Positions 1 to 18,930 of a stretch of DNA of 25,417 bases are shown here, piece after piece (the first letter of the stretch is position 1; each line of letters opens with the position of its first letter). The DNA is from a virus, in IMG/VR virus record IMGVR_UViG_3300042311_000711, positions 1 to 25,417 of that record, one strand, 5' to 3'. The position numbers and the translations under genes were made by a program. The notes below the pieces were generated by a model. The model did not search any database. It saw only the letters and a program-made list of their open reading frames with translations, and had not been told where the DNA came from.

Positions 1-191
1 ACAGAGGTACAATTGCTTCTCCTTGGACTGGACGTATATTTGATATGACTTGGAAACTTGATGAGTGTACAGGTGATGTTATCTATACATTGGCTTACAA
101 CGAAACTCTTTTGGATATCCCACAACACTTCTGTGCTGGTGATAACAGAGAAGGAGTAAATGGTATTCAATATTTCAAAATCGTAAACTAA
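1..191 (+). CDS. C-terminal end of a phage structural protein (partial)
   Basis: An open frame enters from the left edge (codons in phase with base 3) and stops with tandem TAA TAA at 189-194. The 62 visible residues end in YFKIVN and include GRIFDMTWKLDE and LAYNETLLDIPQHFCAGD. Codon use is less A/T-biased than in the genes that follow (many C-ending codons), as is common for a very highly expressed phage gene. With putative connector genes downstream, the likeliest identity is the major capsid or another abundant virion protein, but the visible part has no motif that decides this. Confidence 0.6.
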   Translation, partial: RGTIASPWTGRIFDMTWKLDECTGDVIYTLAYNETLLDIPQHFCAGDNREGVNGIQYFKIVN

Positions 192-196
192 TAACT

Positions 197-1000
197 TTGA
201 GTTGTATAGATTTTACTTTATTAAAATGTAGAAAGGATGAGTCCTCCGATGCTTATGTATTGGAGGATTTCTTCCCTTCTTTATCCTCAAAAGATATCTT
301 TAGTTGGTTTGAAAACCCCTATAGAACTATTGAGAACGCAACAAATATGGCTTACCAAGAAATGGTAGTCAAATTATTAGCAAAAAGTGGCAAAGAAAAT
401 AGAAAGTTAAACGCTAGAATTGGAGATAGATTTGATAAAAACTATTATTCTGTAGGTAGCTATGTAGAAATTGAAGCGCCAAGAGATAAATATTCAATGA
501 TTACTATCAATAATATAGTAGTAAATGTGCAATTTACAGGAACAGTTAATATTGTTTTTGAAAACGAGTTAGCTGTATTAGATGTAGTAGAGGTAGAAGT
601 TGTGAGTGGTGAAACAACAATAAAAACGATAAATAAATCTTTTAAATATGTAAAAATATATTTTGAGGATAAAACAATTAAAGGACGCGAGGTTTTAGGT
701 TGTAGCGCATTAAATGGTGTTATGATTGATTATTCAATGGGATGCGATTATAATGAGTTTATTTGCCAAAATAAAGAGCTTTTTGTTAATGCTATGGCTT
801 ACAAAATAGCTTCTATTTTAATAACTGAAGGTCAATTTAGTGGAGAATATAATCAAAGAATAATGCAAGCCGAAGACTATGCCGAATTAAAAGCGGAATA
901 CGAAACACAATTTGGTTTGCAAATATTGAATTTGAGCTTATTAGAAAGTGGGTGTTTTAATTGCTGCAATAAAATTAGTTTTCCAGTTAATTTGCCCTAA
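197..1000 (+). CDS. Putative head-tail region structural protein, 267 aa
   Basis: I do not recognise the family. The frame is open from 146 (after stops at 140-145), and the only usual start before an internal ATG near 344 is TTG at 197, three bases past the tandem stops of the upstream gene. Termination-reinitiation or coupled translation is therefore likely. The protein is mixed alpha/beta: helical around residues 40-70, a central beta-rich part (TINNIVVNVQFTGTVNIVF and neighbours), a helical part near 195-240, and a Cys-rich tail (CFNCCNK). Its last base is shared with the A of the next ATG. Its place between an abundant virion protein and tail-completion-like genes suggests a connector or neck role; this is inference from order only. 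If the ATG near 344 were used, about 49 residues would be lost. Confidence 0.75.
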   Translation: MSCIDFTLLKCRKDESSDAYVLEDFFPSLSSKDIFSWFENPYRTIENATNMAYQEMVVKLLAKSGKENRKLNARIGDRFDKNYYSVGSYVEIEAPRDKYSMITINNIVVNVQFTGTVNIVFENELAVLDVVEVEVVSGETTIKTINKSFKYVKIYFEDKTIKGREVLGCSALNGVMIDYSMGCDYNEFICQNKELFVNAMAYKIASILITEGQFSGEYNQRIMQAEDYAELKAEYETQFGLQILNLSLLESGCFNCCNKISFPVNLP

Positions 1001-1458
1001 TGACAACGATAGAAGATATATTGCAAAAACAACTAGAGCAAATTGAAAAAAAGTTCTATTTTGCCGTTTTAGATACACACGATGAAATGGTCAATAGAAT
1101 ATTTGAGCAGCAAAAAGATGCAAATGGAGGTGCGCCAAAACCATATAGCACCGAGCCATTATGGATTAGTAGAGCTTCATTAGAAGGAGTTAAAGATACT
1201 GGTAGAAAATCAAAGAGTGGCAAAACAAGATATTTTGAAGATGGATATAAAGAATTAAAAGCATCAATTGGCCGTCCACCATTAGAGTTAAGAGGTTTTT
1301 TAAAATTAGATTTTACAAACGGAATAAGACAAGTAGGCCCATTACAATTTGATGTAGATGTAAATAAAGAAAGTTTAAATAAAATAAATGGAAATTTTAA
1401 AACATTCTTTGAGTTGAGTAGAAATGAAAAAGAAAATTTATTAAAAAGATTAGAATGA
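1000..1458 (+). CDS. Putative tail-completion / neck protein
   Basis: A 152-residue soluble protein. It starts with a helical region (residues 1-40), then a Pro/Gly-rich loop (GGAPKPYSTEPLWIS) and a segment GKTRYFEDGYKELKASIG followed by LELRGFLKLDF. The combination of a YFEDGYKEL-like segment with a following LxLRGxLxxDF stretch recalls small phage neck or tail-completion proteins of Bacteroidota phages. This is by memory of the pattern, not a search. It overlaps both neighbours (1 base upstream, ATGA overlap downstream), showing tight translational coupling within a morphogenesis operon. An opposite-strand frame over the same bases is a shadow of this gene. Confidence 0.6.
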   Translation: MTTIEDILQKQLEQIEKKFYFAVLDTHDEMVNRIFEQQKDANGGAPKPYSTEPLWISRASLEGVKDTGRKSKSGKTRYFEDGYKELKASIGRPPLELRGFLKLDFTNGIRQVGPLQFDVDVNKESLNKINGNFKTFFELSRNEKENLLKRLE

Positions 1459-1889
1459 TTAACGAGATAATATCGGATTTGATAAAAATAGAACTTGCGC
1501 ACGTTTTCCAATTTGAAAAAAACGGCGAAATTGTATTATATAATTTTGACTCTGATTTGATTTTTGACAACAAACATTTTGGAGGTTATTTAAGACAAAT
1601 AAAAAGCAGCAAAATAGAAGATAATAATGTGTCTAATTATTTTCGTACTGATTATAAATTAGTATTGATGTTTGACCCTAAAAAATGCTTTGACGATATT
1701 AAAAACATTTTAGCAAATGTAGAAAGCACAAAAAGGATTGATAATATTGTGTCTATTAAAGTTAAAACTTTTTATTTAGATTCAGTGTTAAATATGAAAC
1801 AAGAAAAATTGAAAGGATTAAATAAAAAAGTAATAATTGCAGATATAGAGGTAAACGAAATTATCTGTAAAACACTAATAAATTGTTAA
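1455..1889 (+). CDS. Putative tail-terminator-like structural protein
   Basis: A 144-residue protein of unrecognised family whose start codon overlaps the stop of the upstream gene (ATGA). Size, position after the neck-like protein and mixed alpha/beta composition fit a tail terminator or head-tail joining protein, but I see no diagnostic motif. The beginning (MINEIISDLIKIELAHVFQF) is amphipathic helical and the middle holds alternating hydrophobic strands (YKLVLMFDP, IVSIKVKTFYLDSVL). Treat the function as a guess from gene order. Confidence 0.6.
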   Translation: MINEIISDLIKIELAHVFQFEKNGEIVLYNFDSDLIFDNKHFGGYLRQIKSSKIEDNNVSNYFRTDYKLVLMFDPKKCFDDIKNILANVESTKRIDNIVSIKVKTFYLDSVLNMKQEKLKGLNKKVIIADIEVNEIICKTLINC

Positions 1890-1907
1890 AAATTAAAATA
1901 TAAAATT

Positions 1908-2504
1908 ATGGCTATAATAAACGGATGTTGTGGATTTGGTAATTCATACACTTTTGTAAAAAATGAAAATCAATACAACTTTGACGTAGATGCAGAAAAT
2001 TGGGCTAATAAAAATATAACAGACCAAGCAAGTTTTAATGCTGCATTGGGTGTTACTACTGATGCTTTTCAATTAAATGGTACTAATATTAAAGCAAATA
2101 TAACTTCATTGTCAAATAATGAATTGAATTTTAATTCATATGATTTAACTAATGTTAATTATATTACAGTTGAAGGATTGATAAGATTAAACCTTGAAAC
2201 AAATAAATTGAGAGAATTTAATCCTATTAAAAAATTACCTTCTACACTTGAAGAAATAAACTTTTTTAGAAACTATTTAAGATTTTTTACACCAGATTTA
2301 AAATTGCCTAGCAATGTAGATTATTTGAATTTTAGTGAAAACGAATTTACTACAATTGGTTATGCAGCTTCGGAAGTTTGGGCAAATTTAATGTATATAG
2401 CACCTGTACCAGGAACAATATATTTTGAAAATAATACAAATTCAGTTTCTGGAACTAATTTAGAATCTATTTTGATAGGCAAAGGTTGGACAGTAGTTGC
2501 ATAA
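1908..2504 (+). CDS. Leucine-rich-repeat protein, probably virion-associated
   Basis: A 198-residue protein. Residues about 65-145 carry degenerate leucine-rich repeats of about 22 residues: LIRLNLETNKLREFNPI, LEEINFFRNYLRFFTPD and VDYLNFSENEFTTIG follow the LxxLxLxxNxL pattern. The end (ESILIGKGWTVV) resembles the closing segment of bacterial surface LRR proteins. The start follows the A-rich leader TTAAAATATAAAATT. It lies 10 bases before a fibre-like gene and after connector genes, so a place on the virion, possibly in receptor contact, is reasonable but inferred. No signal peptide is visible, against a host-secreted role. Confidence 0.7.
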   Translation: MAIINGCCGFGNSYTFVKNENQYNFDVDAENWANKNITDQASFNAALGVTTDAFQLNGTNIKANITSLSNNELNFNSYDLTNVNYITVEGLIRLNLETNKLREFNPIKKLPSTLEEINFFRNYLRFFTPDLKLPSNVDYLNFSENEFTTIGYAASEVWANLMYIAPVPGTIYFENNTNSVSGTNLESILIGKGWTVVA

Positions 2505-2514
2505 TATTTAAAAA

Positions 2515-3723
2515 ATGGCATTAGAGGATAATTATATTTATAGAGTTTTAGATAGGATTTCTAAAATTGAAAATAATTCTATCCTATGGGAATATTCTGA
2601 CACCGACCCATTAGAAATTGGAAATGAGGCCGGAATTAGATGGGTAAGAAATTATTTGAATGAAACTTATTGGTTTATTGATGCCGATGGGAATGCTATT
2701 CAAATAGATATTGACCGTTGGAATTTAAGAGGAAATATTGGCATAAATCCAGAAATTAATTACATTGGAAATTATGACTATGTAGATTTACCTTTTAGAA
2801 CAAATAATGAGGAAAGATTAAGAATAACAGCAGATGGAAATGTTATAATAGGAGGTGGAGCTGATTCAATATCGGCTCTATTAAACCTAAATTCTACTTC
2901 TAAGGGGTTTTTGCCACCTAGAATGGATACAAGTCAAAAAAGCGAAATAGAAACGCCAGAAGATGGCCTAATCGTATTTGATACGACTTTAAATAGTTTG
3001 TCTATTTATTACGATTCAGCTTGGCATCAACTTGTTTTTAGTGATGGCTGTGTTACAAGTTTTAATGAAAGGACTGGAGATGTAACATTGCTAGATACTG
3101 ATGTAACTACAGCATTAGGATATACACCGGAAAATGTAGCTAATAAAGTTACTACAATAGTTCCAGAATTAATTAATGATACAGAATATCCAAGTACAAG
3201 CGCAGTTTATAATTATATTACAACTGCAGTTTCAAAATCTTTTGGAGCGTTTCAAGATGACGCAACTCAATATGCAGCTGCTAGTAATATCGGTTATGGA
3301 GTAAAATTTAACACGATAGATATTGGAGGTTATGGTGTTAGCATAGAAGCTGATTCATTAGGAGATAAAACTTTTATCCAGTTTGAAAAAGCTGGATTTT
3401 ATAATATACAATTTAGTTTTCAATTTCAAAATTTACACAATCAAATAGAAGATGTAACTATTTGGATTAGAAAAAATGGTGAAACTACTGCAGAAGATGT
3501 ACCTGCTACTGCTGGTTTTGTTTCAGTTCCAAACTCACACGGAGGTAGACCGGGAACTATTATAGCAGCTTGGAATTATTTTGTACAAGCAAACGCTGGA
3601 GATTTTTATCAATTAGTATGGTCTACAACAGACCACACAAACGTATCAATGGAATATTATCCTGCTGGGAGTCCACCACCGAGTGCAGCTTCTGCTATCT
3701 TAACTGTTAATCAAGTCAATTAA
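2515..3723 (+). CDS. Tail-fibre-like / receptor-binding structural protein
   Basis: A 402-residue protein built from modules seen in phage fibres and Bacteroidota surface proteins. Residues about 95-120 have NNEERLRITADGNVIIGG, a fibre/adhesin repeat. Residues about 125-172 have SKGFLPPRMDTSQKSEI ... GLIVFDTTLNSLSIYYDSAW, a segment very common in Bacteroidota phage and adhesin proteins. Residues about 180-205 have VTSFNERTGDVTLLDTDVTT followed by ALGYTPEN, the classic fibre linker. The last about 150 residues are beta-rich and look like a TNF/C1q-type jelly-roll head (DKTFIQFEKAGFYNIQFSFQF, then VTIWIRKNGE). This order suggests shaft then C-terminal knob. The gene sits between the LRR protein and the holin. 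Exact virion position cannot be read from the sequence. Confidence 0.8.
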   Translation: MALEDNYIYRVLDRISKIENNSILWEYSDTDPLEIGNEAGIRWVRNYLNETYWFIDADGNAIQIDIDRWNLRGNIGINPEINYIGNYDYVDLPFRTNNEERLRITADGNVIIGGGADSISALLNLNSTSKGFLPPRMDTSQKSEIETPEDGLIVFDTTLNSLSIYYDSAWHQLVFSDGCVTSFNERTGDVTLLDTDVTTALGYTPENVANKVTTIVPELINDTEYPSTSAVYNYITTAVSKSFGAFQDDATQYAAASNIGYGVKFNTIDIGGYGVSIEADSLGDKTFIQFEKAGFYNIQFSFQFQNLHNQIEDVTIWIRKNGETTAEDVPATAGFVSVPNSHGGRPGTIIAAWNYFVQANAGDFYQLVWSTTDHTNVSMEYYPAGSPPPSAASAILTVNQVN

Positions 3724-3728
3724 TTAAA

Positions 3729-4181
3729 ATGAGAAATTATAATGAATATTTTATAGCTTTTTTGAAAACATTATTTTTAAGTATATTTGCATTTTTATCT
3801 CCCATAAATGGTTTACTGTTTTTAGTGGGTTTATTTGTGTTTTCAGACACTTTTTTCGCAATATATACAAGTATTAAACTAAATGGATTTTATTCGTTTA
3901 AAAGCCATAAATTATTCAATATAGTAGTTAAATCATTTTTCTATTTAGGTAGTGTATTTTTGGCATATTGTATTGACAAGTATATAATAAATAGCAATAT
4001 TATTTTTGGTATTGAACTTTTAATAGCAAAAGTTACTTCTTTGTTTTGGATTTATATCGAAATGAAGTCAATCGATGAAACTTCGCAAAAATTAGGTAAC
4101 AGGCCTTTTATTTTTGTTTTAAAGGATATAATTGAAAAAGCAAAAAGCTTTAAAAAAGATATTAACGAAATAACAGAATAA
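3729..4181 (+). CDS. Phage holin, four membrane segments
   Basis: A 150-residue membrane protein with hydrophobic segments at about 7-27, 28-50, 62-82 and 88-110, then a charged cytoplasmic tail (residues 113-150, many Lys and Glu). The segment WIYIEMKSIDETSQKLGN just after the last helix resembles the conserved region of the Bacteroidota phage holin family. The gene is the first of three lysis genes and lies one base before the lipoprotein/spanin candidate. Holins permeabilise the inner membrane to release or activate the endolysin. A promoter-like string lies inside its 5' end (3762-3790), but I do not rely on it. Confidence 0.8.
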   Translation: MRNYNEYFIAFLKTLFLSIFAFLSPINGLLFLVGLFVFSDTFFAIYTSIKLNGFYSFKSHKLFNIVVKSFFYLGSVFLAYCIDKYIINSNIIFGIELLIAKVTSLFWIYIEMKSIDETSQKLGNRPFIFVLKDIIEKAKSFKKDINEITE

Positions 4182-4182
4182 A

Positions 4183-4659
4183 ATGAAAAAATTATTAGTA
4201 TTATTATTGATTTTGACTTCTTGTAGTAGTCAAAAGCAACTAATTAGAAAGCAAAAGAAAGCAAACAAATTAGAATTTGAGATTAATGAGCTTAAAAAAG
4301 AGCTTAATTTGCCATTGGATTCTACGATTATTAGACTTGATACCATTATAAGTATTGATTCATTTGTAAAATACGACACTATTAAGCTAAAATGTAATGA
4401 TAGCAATGAAGTTGTTTATATTACAGGTGAGAAAACTAATGGCGAAATAATTACCAAAACAAAGTATATCTATAAAGATAAAATTATAAATAAAGAGGTT
4501 GGTAAAGTAAAAAAAGAAATAGTTTTTAAGGAAAAAGAATTTAAAAAATATCAAATAGTATTGATGGGTTTTGGGTTTATAGTTGTAATTGGAATTTTAT
4601 TCTACTTAATTACAAACTTTGCATTTTTAGTTATGAAATATTTAAAAATAAAATTATAA
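4183..4659 (+). CDS. Lipoprotein with C-terminal membrane anchor, unimolecular-spanin-like
   Basis: A 158-residue protein. Residues 1-14 form a lipoprotein signal with a Bacteroidota-type lipobox (LILTSC, acylated Cys14, then SSQ). Residues 18-42 are a charged helix. The middle (50-118) is hydrophilic and strand-forming (DTIIRLDTIISIDSF and following). Residues about 124-151 form a C-terminal transmembrane segment (YQIVLMGFGFIVVIGILFYL), then KYLKIKL. An N-terminal outer-membrane lipid anchor plus a C-terminal inner-membrane helix in one chain is the layout of unimolecular spanins, which fuse the two membranes at the end of lysis. It lies between holin and endolysin, where Rz-type genes occur. 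Function is inferred from topology and place. Confidence 0.7.
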   Translation: MKKLLVLLLILTSCSSQKQLIRKQKKANKLEFEINELKKELNLPLDSTIIRLDTIISIDSFVKYDTIKLKCNDSNEVVYITGEKTNGEIITKTKYIYKDKIINKEVGKVKKEIVFKEKEFKKYQIVLMGFGFIVVIGILFYLITNFAFLVMKYLKIKL

Positions 4660-4663
4660 AAAG

Positions 4664-5194
4664 ATGGATAAAAATACCTTTGTAAAAACTTTTTTTTCTG
4701 AAGCTAAAAAAGCAAGTGATTTAATTTATTCTCAAAAAGGAAAGGTTGTATTTCCAGCCACAATCTTAACAAGAGCAGCAATAGAGTCTGGATGGGGAAA
4801 GCACGTTGTAGGAAATAACTTTTTTGGAATAAAAGATTTTGATGGAGTAAACGGAAACGAAATACTTATAACTACTCACGAATATCATAAAACAAAAAAT
4901 GTAAAATACCCAAAAGTATTGAGCGTGGTTTGGGATGCAGTTCGCAAATTATTCAAATATAAAGTACAGGATTATTTTAGAAAATACAATACAGCTTCGG
5001 AGTCTTTTTATGATTTTTGTATGTTTTTAGTTAAAAATCCTAGATATTCAAAAGCATTTGACGCAAAAAATGCTTATGACCAAGGTTCTACAATTTGTTT
5101 TGCAGGTTACGCAACACACCCAGAAGCGGTAAAACTTACAAGACAGGTTACAATATCAATTGAAAAAATTATTATTGATTTAAAATTAAATTAG
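4664..5194 (+). CDS. Endolysin, glucosaminidase (GH73-like)
   Basis: A 176-residue murein hydrolase of the glucosaminidase family, which cuts the glycan chain after N-acetylglucosamine. The signature TRAAIESGWGKHVVGNNFFG lies at residues 36-55; Glu41 is the likely catalytic acid, and NNFFGIKDF is the conserved substrate-cleft segment. The second part has the family's usual KYPKVLSVVWDAVRKLFKYK and NPRYSKAF, and ends with YATHPEAVKLTRQV. No signal peptide or anchor is present, so export depends on the holin. It is the last gene of the lysis cassette and is followed by a strong terminator. Its final codons carry the -33 part of a promoter. Confidence 0.9.
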   Translation: MDKNTFVKTFFSEAKKASDLIYSQKGKVVFPATILTRAAIESGWGKHVVGNNFFGIKDFDGVNGNEILITTHEYHKTKNVKYPKVLSVVWDAVRKLFKYKVQDYFRKYNTASESFYDFCMFLVKNPRYSKAFDAKNAYDQGSTICFAGYATHPEAVKLTRQVTISIEKIIIDLKLN

Positions 5195-12978: not shown

Positions 12979-13016
12979 AAAATAAATTATTAATAAATTA
13001 AAATATAAAAAATGGA
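12979..13016 (+). repeat. Direct repeat, left copy (leader of the methyltransferase gene)
   Basis: 38 bases matching 14629-14666 with one mismatch (12988); the last 28 bases are identical and include ATGGA, the first five bases of both genes. The copies are 1650 bases apart and bracket exactly the methyltransferase and PLP-enzyme genes. Both copies also work as A-rich translation leaders. Confidence 0.75.
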
Positions 13017-13881
13017 AGTAGATTTATTTGGAAACAAAATTATAAAAGATGCTTTGCTTAGAGATAAGTATATTGAGCCACCATTTACAAGATTAGATGC
13101 AGTTAGTGGAAGTTGGCAAAAACGTAAAAACTTATGGAAACAAAAAGGTATTAAAAGCGAATTAGGTCGCGATGGTGCTTTATGTTTAGCACAAGGTTTA
13201 AATGCATTTGACCCAAGAGAAAGTTATACAGGAACATCAATTTTTGACCCCGTATTATGCGAATTAATGTATAAATGGTTCTGTCCAGAAGGTGGTACAA
13301 TATTAGACCCTTTTGCTGGTGGTTCTGTCCGTGGAATTGTTGCAAATTTTTTAGGATTTAATTATACTGGATTGGAGTTGAGACCAGAGCAAGTTAAAAG
13401 TAATATTCAACAAGGGTTAGATATTTTATCAAAAGACAATCAGCCAAAATGGTACGAAGGAGATAGTGATGTATTATTAGATAATAAATGGAGTTTTGAT
13501 TTTGATATGATTTTTAGTTGTCCTCCTTATATGGATTTGGAGGTTTATAGTGATAGAAATGATGATTTAAGTACATTAAGTGATGATGATTTTATTTTAA
13601 AATATGAAAGTATAATTAAAAAAAGTTGTGATAAATTAAAAAAAGATGGATTTGCAATTTTTGTTGTTGGTGATGTAAGAGATAAAAAAACTGGATTTTA
13701 TAAAGACTTTATAACTATTACTAAAATGGCTTTTTATAAATCTGGATTAAAACTTTACAACGAAGCTATTCTTTTAGAGAATGGATTAAATACAGCAGCT
13801 ATGAGAGCAGATAAACAATTTACTGCTGGTAAAAAACTTGTGAAAGTGCATCAAAACGTATTAATATTTAAAAAACCATAA
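13012..13881 (+). CDS. DNA methyltransferase, amino-group (N4/N6) type
   Basis: A 289-residue S-adenosylmethionine-dependent DNA methylase. The SIFDPVLCELMYKWF segment (residues 76-90) looks like motif X, followed by motif I DPFAGGS (99-105, cofactor binding) and motif IV SCPPY (169-173, catalytic). The order X-I-IV is the gamma-class arrangement. SCPPY, in place of DPPY or SPPY, leaves open whether adenine or cytosine is modified. The N-terminal segment SGSWQKRKNLWKQKGIKSE followed by LGRDGALCLAQ (32-61) is what I recall from a phage-associated methylase family without a partner endonuclease. No restriction gene is nearby, so self-protection of phage DNA is likelier than a restriction system. 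The PLP-enzyme gene starts two bases after its stop codon. Confidence 0.88.
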   Translation: MEVDLFGNKIIKDALLRDKYIEPPFTRLDAVSGSWQKRKNLWKQKGIKSELGRDGALCLAQGLNAFDPRESYTGTSIFDPVLCELMYKWFCPEGGTILDPFAGGSVRGIVANFLGFNYTGLELRPEQVKSNIQQGLDILSKDNQPKWYEGDSDVLLDNKWSFDFDMIFSCPPYMDLEVYSDRNDDLSTLSDDDFILKYESIIKKSCDKLKKDGFAIFVVGDVRDKKTGFYKDFITITKMAFYKSGLKLYNEAILLENGLNTAAMRADKQFTAGKKLVKVHQNVLIFKKP

Positions 13882-13882
13882 A

Positions 13883-14575
13883 ATGATTACAATAGAAAAA
13901 CATAAAGGAATAAATGTATTGAGAGATGATTTATTGACTGGAGGAACAAAGAGCATTTTAATGCCTTCAATAATTGGAGATGATTTTGAGTATGTTTATG
14001 CTTCTCCCGTTTATGGTGGTTTTCAAATAGCTTTATCAGCATATTGTCAAAGCGTTAATAAAAAAGCTACTATATTTTGTGCAAAAAGAAAAGAGATGCA
14101 TCCAAACACGCTAAAATGTATCGAATATGGTGCAAATGTTGTTGAAATACCTTATGGATATTTAACAGTAGTTGAAAAACACGCTAAAGATTATTGTTTA
14201 CTTACTGGAGCTAAAAAGCTGGTATTTGGGGCAAATACAATTGAAAATAAGGAATTGATAGGAAATAGAATGGTACAAGTTATAAATCAATTGGGTAAAG
14301 AACCTAGTGAGATTTGGTGTGCTATAGGAAGTGGAACACTTGTCGATAGCATTTTATTGTCTACAAAAACAGCTAAAATATATGGTGTTCAAGTTGGAGC
14401 TGAATATACTGGAAAACACGAAAGATTAACAGTTTTAAAATATCCAAAGTCTTTTGATAAGTTAAGTAAGTTTAACGCTGGTTTCCCATCGATGCCTAAC
14501 TATGATTTAAAAGCATTTGAGTTATGTGTAAAGCATAAAAATTCGGATGATGTTTTATTTTGGAATGTTCTTTAA
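13883..14575 (+). CDS. PLP-dependent fold-type II enzyme (ACC-deaminase / cysteine-desulfhydrase-like)
   Basis: A 230-residue member of the tryptophan-synthase-beta superfamily. VLRDDLLTGGTKSIL (residues 12-26) matches the family's K-R-x-D-L-x-x-G-G-x-K start; Lys23 is the expected PLP Schiff-base residue. ASPVYGGFQIALSAY (40-54) stands where the substrate-binding S-x-x-G-G-N-x loop lies, here with Phe instead of Asn. IGSGTLVDSILL (148-159) is the phosphate-binding Gly/Ser/Thr loop. The protein is about 100 residues shorter than free-standing family enzymes, so parts of the small domain are missing. It starts two bases after the methylase stop and is surely co-expressed. It could make or use an amino-acid-derived group in DNA modification; that link is a hypothesis. 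Confidence 0.8.
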   Translation: MITIEKHKGINVLRDDLLTGGTKSILMPSIIGDDFEYVYASPVYGGFQIALSAYCQSVNKKATIFCAKRKEMHPNTLKCIEYGANVVEIPYGYLTVVEKHAKDYCLLTGAKKLVFGANTIENKELIGNRMVQVINQLGKEPSEIWCAIGSGTLVDSILLSTKTAKIYGVQVGAEYTGKHERLTVLKYPKSFDKLSKFNAGFPSMPNYDLKAFELCVKHKNSDDVLFWNVL

Positions 14576-18521: not shown

Positions 18522-18590
18522 ATGGAAATATTATCAATAAGTTTTATACTAATAGTTGTATCATTATTTTGGGCAAGAGATAGAAAATAA
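18522..18590 (+). CDS. Possible membrane micro-protein, 22 aa
   Basis: ATG-started frame giving one hydrophobic segment (LSISFILIVVSLFWA) followed by RDRK, a typical single-pass layout with a positive cytoplasmic end. It fills the gap between two genes exactly (3 and 4 bases). Its presence argues that mazG starts at 18595 rather than 18556. Confidence 0.4.
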   Translation: MEILSISFILIVVSLFWARDRK

Positions 18591-18594
18591 TATT

Positions 18595-18930
18595 ATGAAT
18601 TATCAAGAATTAGAAAAATTAATAATAGAGTGGGCAAACCAAAAAGGAATACTTGAAAAAGGAACTTCGTTGGCTCAATGGAATAAAACAGCTGAAGAAG
18701 TTAATGAGTTGAATGATGCTTTACTTGAGGATAATAGAGCAGAAATAATTGACGCACTAGGTGATATTTTGGTTACGATTATAATACAAGCCGAAATGCA
18801 AGGATTAAAACTTGAAGATTGTTTGGAGTCAGCTTATAATGTAATTGCAAAAAGAACTGGTAAGATGGTTAATGGTCAATTTGTAAAAGATGACAACGCT
18901 TTAAACGATTATAATAATTTAATTTATTAA
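18595..18930 (+). CDS. MazG-like nucleotide pyrophosphohydrolase
   Basis: A 111-residue MazG-family enzyme, which hydrolyses NTPs to NMP and pyrophosphate. Metal-ligand motifs: EEVNEL at 34-39 (Glu34, Glu35 and Glu38) and DALGDILV at 53-60 (Asp53 and Asp57). The length suits the single-domain phage form. ATG 18595 is chosen because the longer start overlaps the small membrane peptide. Phage MazG proteins may lower alarmone or aberrant-nucleotide levels; which applies here is unknown. A HAD phosphatase starts three bases later. Confidence 0.85.
   Translation: MNYQELEKLIIEWANQKGILEKGTSLAQWNKTAEEVNELNDALLEDNRAEIIDALGDILVTIIIQAEMQGLKLEDCLESAYNVIAKRTGKMVNGQFVKDDNALNDYNNLIY

Follow-up and report, generated by a model that had tools for sequence, protein, structure and literature searches.

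A DNA methyltransferase and a fold-type II PLP protein as a possible DNA-modification cassette of phages

Why would a phage keep a PLP-type protein directly behind a DNA methyltransferase (MTase)? The question is raised by a virus record of 25.4 kb, here called the window (the whole stretch of DNA that was analysed, 25,417 nucleotides). Its plus strand carries an ORF for a DNA methyltransferase-like protein of 289 residues (13012..13881) and an ORF for a PLP fold-type II protein of 230 residues, a short form of the ACC-deaminase-like fold (13883..14575). The two ORFs, their strand and the 1-bp spacing between the end at 13881 and the start at 13883 had been described in a sequence-only reading of this DNA and were all reproduced. 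In the explanation favoured here, with a probability of roughly 0.4, the two genes form a phage DNA-modification cassette in which a 3-amino-3-carboxypropyl (acp) group is transferred to DNA and then decarboxylated by the PLP protein, the order being reversed in a branch of the MTase family that is paired with AdoMetDC. The sequence-only reading had likewise proposed a hypermodification cassette; co-occurrence, fusion, exchange of the partner for AdoMetDC and homology of the PLP family to a protein of Salmonella phage ViI support that proposal, the product being putative. Its remark that no restriction endonuclease is present holds for 41 window ORFs scanned against Pfam (excluding the ORF that runs off the right end) and for the best 25 of 42 PHROGs families, and a restriction-modification reading of the pair was rejected for want of an endonuclease beside the MTase in these scans. 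ParB and further hypermodification genes were likewise not found among the same 41 ORFs or the same 25 families. The cassette is followed, some 4 kb downstream, by an ORF (18556-18930) that resembles a MazG-type nucleotide pyrophosphohydrolase.

The window MTase is, as judged by Pfam and PHROGs, an N6/N4-type DNA MTase. It matches PF01555 above the profile cut-off (5.7e-10; 40 bits against a cut-off of 26.7) and phrog_498 "DNA methyltransferase" at 5.5e-66. Motif I (DPFAGGSVRG, residues 99-108, 13306..13335, plus strand) is of the "GG" type, and its DPFAGGS (residues 99-105) precedes SCPPY of motif IV (residues 169-173, 13516..13530, plus strand), which is the gamma order (motif I then IV); motif order and profile matches thus agree with the gamma-order methylase described earlier. 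In N6/N4 amino-MTases, motif IV usually has D, N or S where the CPPY family has Cys. The window MTase belongs by sequence with the ParB-MTase proteins of phrog_498 and phrog_12517 and with PF01555, but differs from them in motif IV, which reads CPPY and not (D/N/S)PP(Y/F). The unusual form S/T-C-P-P-Y is common to the surveyed MTases, although the loci were partly picked by the CPPY pattern and other forms could be missed. The Cys is invariant across the aligned family, and the motif would leave open even the target atom. The window lineage has no ParB domain. An AF2 model of the MTase (pLDDT 87) has TrmN, PrmA and Trm11 as its nearest folds, which are ordinary N-methyltransferases and not acp transferases. 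No description of partner genes for the phrog_498, phrog_12517 or PF01555 MTases was found in the literature sources searched.

The PLP protein is assigned to fold-type II by its modelled fold. Its match to PF00291 (1.5e-6, 28 bits) is under the cut-off of 35 bits, which is passed by fused relatives in Pam4 and ZS04, and it matches phrog_7093 at 1.8e-28. The AF2 model, built on the family alignment, has a pLDDT of 95.4; all of its top structure matches are of fold-type II, and the best TM-score among the listed PDB matches belongs to the ACC deaminase homologue 1j0a (TMq 0.80). A profile of 10 rows matched tryptophan synthase beta and others in the PDB, and a profile of 62 rows matched nothing there at E 0.001. 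With 1j0a at 325 residues, the protein falls short of it by about 95, close to the roughly 100 missing residues noted earlier. Lys23 (13949..13951, plus strand), the predicted Schiff-base lysine for PLP, does not vary among 62 aligned relatives or in the homologues from ViI and Vincenzo, and the PLP lysine is kept in all 65 distinct relatives. The phosphate-binding loop GSGT (residues 149-152, 14327..14338, plus strand) is conserved in its GSG, so that both features reported as retained are conserved across the family. The Tyr and Lys of the YDLK motif (residues 207-210, 14501..14512, plus strand) are invariant as far as the ViI and Vincenzo homologues, where the motif reads YEGK. The usual Asn of the cofactor loop (S-x-N) is missing, again as described earlier, and the family has P-x-x-G-G-x-Q in its place with a nearly invariant Gln48.

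Relatives of the PLP protein were sought in phages, IMG/VR and GTDB genomes, which gave more than 240 viral stretches, and 65 PLP representatives were defined at 85% identity. A CPPY MTase is found on the fetched stretch of 62 of these, and the two genes are at most 100 bp apart in 50 and at most 500 bp apart in 57 of the 65. The pair thus extends past its own lineage, which was the co-occurrence check suggested by the sequence-only reading, and a local or chance pair is ruled out by 65 representatives from many phages. The three exceptions differ in kind. L019 has an MTase elsewhere on its contig (E 3e-120). The contig of L036 encodes a highly diverged CPPY protein (L348 1327-2517, FCPPYFDLEVY, phrog_12517 at 5e-9), and its PLP gene is standalone. 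L022 is a distant PLP relative (31%) on a 6.7-kb contig with no CPPY MTase; at 143-4828 it lies beside a dCMP-deaminase-like gene, a weak UDG match and two large ORFs assigned to no family. L022 was considered as a hypermodification cluster and set aside, its neighbours being uninformative beyond the deaminase and the weak UDG match. Pam4 and the two Erythrobacter phages R6L and ZS04 carry a fusion: their ParB-MTase protein has the PLP domain inserted after motif I and before motif IV. Distances among the PLP proteins are correlated with those among the MTases (Mantel r 0.70, 0 of 2000 permutations). The MTases of the window and of L007 are just 61% identical and their PLP proteins 90%; because of this difference, the MTase is taken from sequence to have been exchanged or to be fast-diverging between the two lineages. 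The literature searched, with partial coverage, holds no description of this MTase-PLP pairing.

The partner of the MTase is not always a PLP protein. An AdoMetDC gene lies downstream of the MTase relatives of Pseudomonas phage ZRG1 and Croceibacter phage P2559S; in Mycobacterium phage Vincenzo the partner is again a PLP protein, though a longer one. A partner survey of 224 MTase representatives gave two types of motif I. The GD type (D-x-F-x-G-D-S/T-V-F-G) forms a sister clade with AdoMetDC in 51 of 55 representatives and PLP in none. The GG type (D-P-F-A-G-G-S-V-R-G) has no AdoMetDC and is found with PLP in 69 cases and without it in 93. Loci seeded with PLP push up the first of these two counts: among the phage loci and those seeded with the MTase, 12 have PLP and 92 lack it. 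In the aligned cores, every one of 143 GG sequences has G104 and R107; of the 44 AdoMetDC-paired MTases, all have D104 and 43 have F107, the remaining one having Met. The exchange of partner is thus accompanied by a change in motif I, and G104 to D with R107 to F would fit the loss of the SAM carboxylate. The AdoMetDC label changes 3 times on the tree, so the AdoMetDC link goes back to few evolutionary events; about 24 changes of the PLP label fall within GG, so this partner has often been gained or lost.

The AdoMetDC domain of the partner genes was confirmed by Pfam, and the pyruvoyl-site ESH motif is retained in nearly all 51. The AdoMetDC of P2559S, the partner of a GD-type MTase of the present family, is bona fide and restores spermidine in an E. 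coli speD mutant, and certain other phage SpeD homologues decarboxylate arginine instead (PMC9992855). That study frames the P2559S enzyme as polyamine metabolism, and the word "methyltransferase" is absent from its main text. A search of 28 GD-type records for spermidine synthase genes found none, which weakens the view that AdoMetDC serves polyamines, although hosts may supply the synthase.

The same survey bears on the plainest alternative, in which the MTase carries out ordinary DNA methylation and the PLP protein serves metabolism or regulation independently of it. Over half of the surveyed GG-type MTases lack a PLP partner and no residue on the aligned cores distinguishes paired from unpaired enzymes, and therefore GG enzymes may simply methylate; the N-methyltransferase folds nearest to the MTase model point the same way. 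The unpaired GG-type MTases in particular, which have the same motif and no PLP gene elsewhere on 43 contigs (many possibly fragments), could be plain methylases. Plain methylation across the pairs is nevertheless judged unlikely in view of the tight linkage, the PLP fusion inside the MTase and a SAM decarboxylase as partner in the sister clade.

The cassette reading draws further on a relationship to phage ViI. The Vincenzo PLP protein matches phrog_7093 (1.6e-11) and 335 phage records, ViI included, that come mainly from large phages of enterobacteria and Vibrio, and it aligns with Vi01_182 of ViI at 3e-16. Direct profile comparison of the window family with ViI is weak, and the link runs via Vincenzo; R14, D16, G21, K23, G116, Y207 and K210 are common to eleven aligned proteins from the window to ViI. 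Three PLP families were tested in ViI: Vi01_182 was the sole match with PF00291, and none was found with PF00155 or PF00282. Vi01_182 thus appears to be a fold-type II protein related to the window PLP family through Vincenzo, and the earlier statement that known hypermodification pathways use PLP enzymes of other folds looks wrong for ViI, as far as these three families go. The PLP decarboxylases of ViI reportedly act on amino acids attached to DNA (Lee et al.). The ViI protein is probably a DNA-acting PLP enzyme and a relative of the window family. The ViI pathway starts from 5-hmdU and involves a kinase and an amino-acid transferase. The window locus would resemble ViI thymidine hypermodification in encoding a PLP protein probably related to Vi01_182 but has an MTase in place of the 5-hmdU kinase and amino-acid transferase; neither a 5-hmdU kinase nor an aGPT-PPase was found in the window by Pfam or among the best 25 of 42 PHROGs families, in a record that may be a fragment. 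The DNA of ViI carries 5-(2-aminoethoxy)methyl-dU (PMC11721090).

CmoA/CmoX, part of the CmoA/CmoX/CmoY system for 5-carboxymethylcytosine in Synechococcus phage S-B43, sets by analogy the clearest precedent: there, a phage MTase has a partner that modifies SAM (PMC12783734). Both systems have a DNA MTase homologue, and in CmoX, as may be the case here, an Arg of the MTase recognises the altered portion of the donor (PMC12783734); ParB-domain proteins are common nearby in both. The systems differ in that CmoX is a C5-cytosine MTase with an SPPC motif that uses carboxy-SAM, whereas the present MTase is of the N6/N4 type with CPPY and is paired with PLP or AdoMetDC. Among 41 window ORFs, Pfam gave neither CmoA nor a C5-cytosine MTase, and it assigned the window MTase to PF01555. 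The precedent suggests that the PLP protein might act before transfer, altering SAM by decarboxylation, deamination or another change of the amino-acid end, and that the MTase would use the product as donor, as CmoX uses that of CmoA. AdoMetDC in the sister clade offers the same direct analogy, and a PLP domain inserted within the MTase would permit channelling. On the other side, G104 and R107 are alike in PLP-paired and unpaired MTases and give no sign of a donor change, and the unpaired MTases would be without a donor. Action before transfer is accordingly regarded as improbable.

For the cassette with transfer first, the common theme would be the amino-acid end of SAM, given that one partner is a SAM decarboxylase and the other is related to a PLP enzyme that probably acts on DNA. 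The CPPY MTase would bind SAM with Arg107 placed, by inference, for the carboxylate, and would put on a DNA base a SAM-derived group with an alpha-amino-acid end, most likely acp. Since Arg107 is kept in the window branch, carboxylate-bearing SAM is presumably bound and the PLP step would come after transfer. The PLP protein would then act on the DNA-borne amino-acid group, most likely by decarboxylation, to give a cationic aminopropyl group, and the modified base may have an anti-restriction role. Against this step, decarboxylation by a fold-type II enzyme is not known outside ViI. In the AdoMetDC branch, decarboxylated SAM would be made first and its aminopropyl group transferred by the GD-type MTase, with the same end product. 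The stronger claim that one MTase family holds two routes to N-(3-aminopropyl) DNA bases, one by aminopropyl transfer from decarboxylated SAM and one by acp transfer followed by PLP-dependent decarboxylation on DNA, is viewed as doubtful. If the proposal is true, a widespread family of DNA MTases annotated as methylases transfers the other side chain of SAM, a new class of cationic DNA bases exists, and the presence of AdoMetDC without spermidine synthase in some phages is explained.

Two further explanations are much less probable. The PLP protein could be a purely structural partner of the MTase without catalytic activity, an option raised by the sequence-only reading and consistent with the protein's reduced length, the missing loop Asn and the fusions seen in some phages; the invariant Lys23 disfavours it, as does the retention of the GSG loop, Tyr207 and Lys210 over large divergence, and it is given very little weight. 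Least probable is that the AdoMetDC and PLP partners reduce SAM, or yield an inhibitor of host restriction that depends on SAM, and lie beside the MTase for regulation: AdoMetDC consumes SAM and phages are known to encode SAM-destroying enzymes that counter restriction, but the neighbouring MTase would be starved, and the linked motif I change and a SAM synthetase beside a GD-type MTase would be left unexplained.

Several related loci show additional neighbours or conflicting names. In L150 (2937-6707), a GD-type CPPY MTase is immediately preceded by the SAM synthetase gene, which overlaps its start, and a PP-loop (weakly PAPS-reductase-like) protein is encoded downstream, with no AdoMetDC nearby. 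In the haloarchaeal virus HCTV-2 (L118 4033-4674) and in L298, the CPPY MTase is followed by a small second Rossmann MTase-like protein with an SxPD motif. Existing annotations of the PLP proteins conflict: a Vincenzo-type protein (L117 1406-2272) is named carboxylate deaminase or nucleoside deaminase, and the PLP protein of Mae-JY30 (L004 3983-4693) is annotated as a DNA modification methylase.
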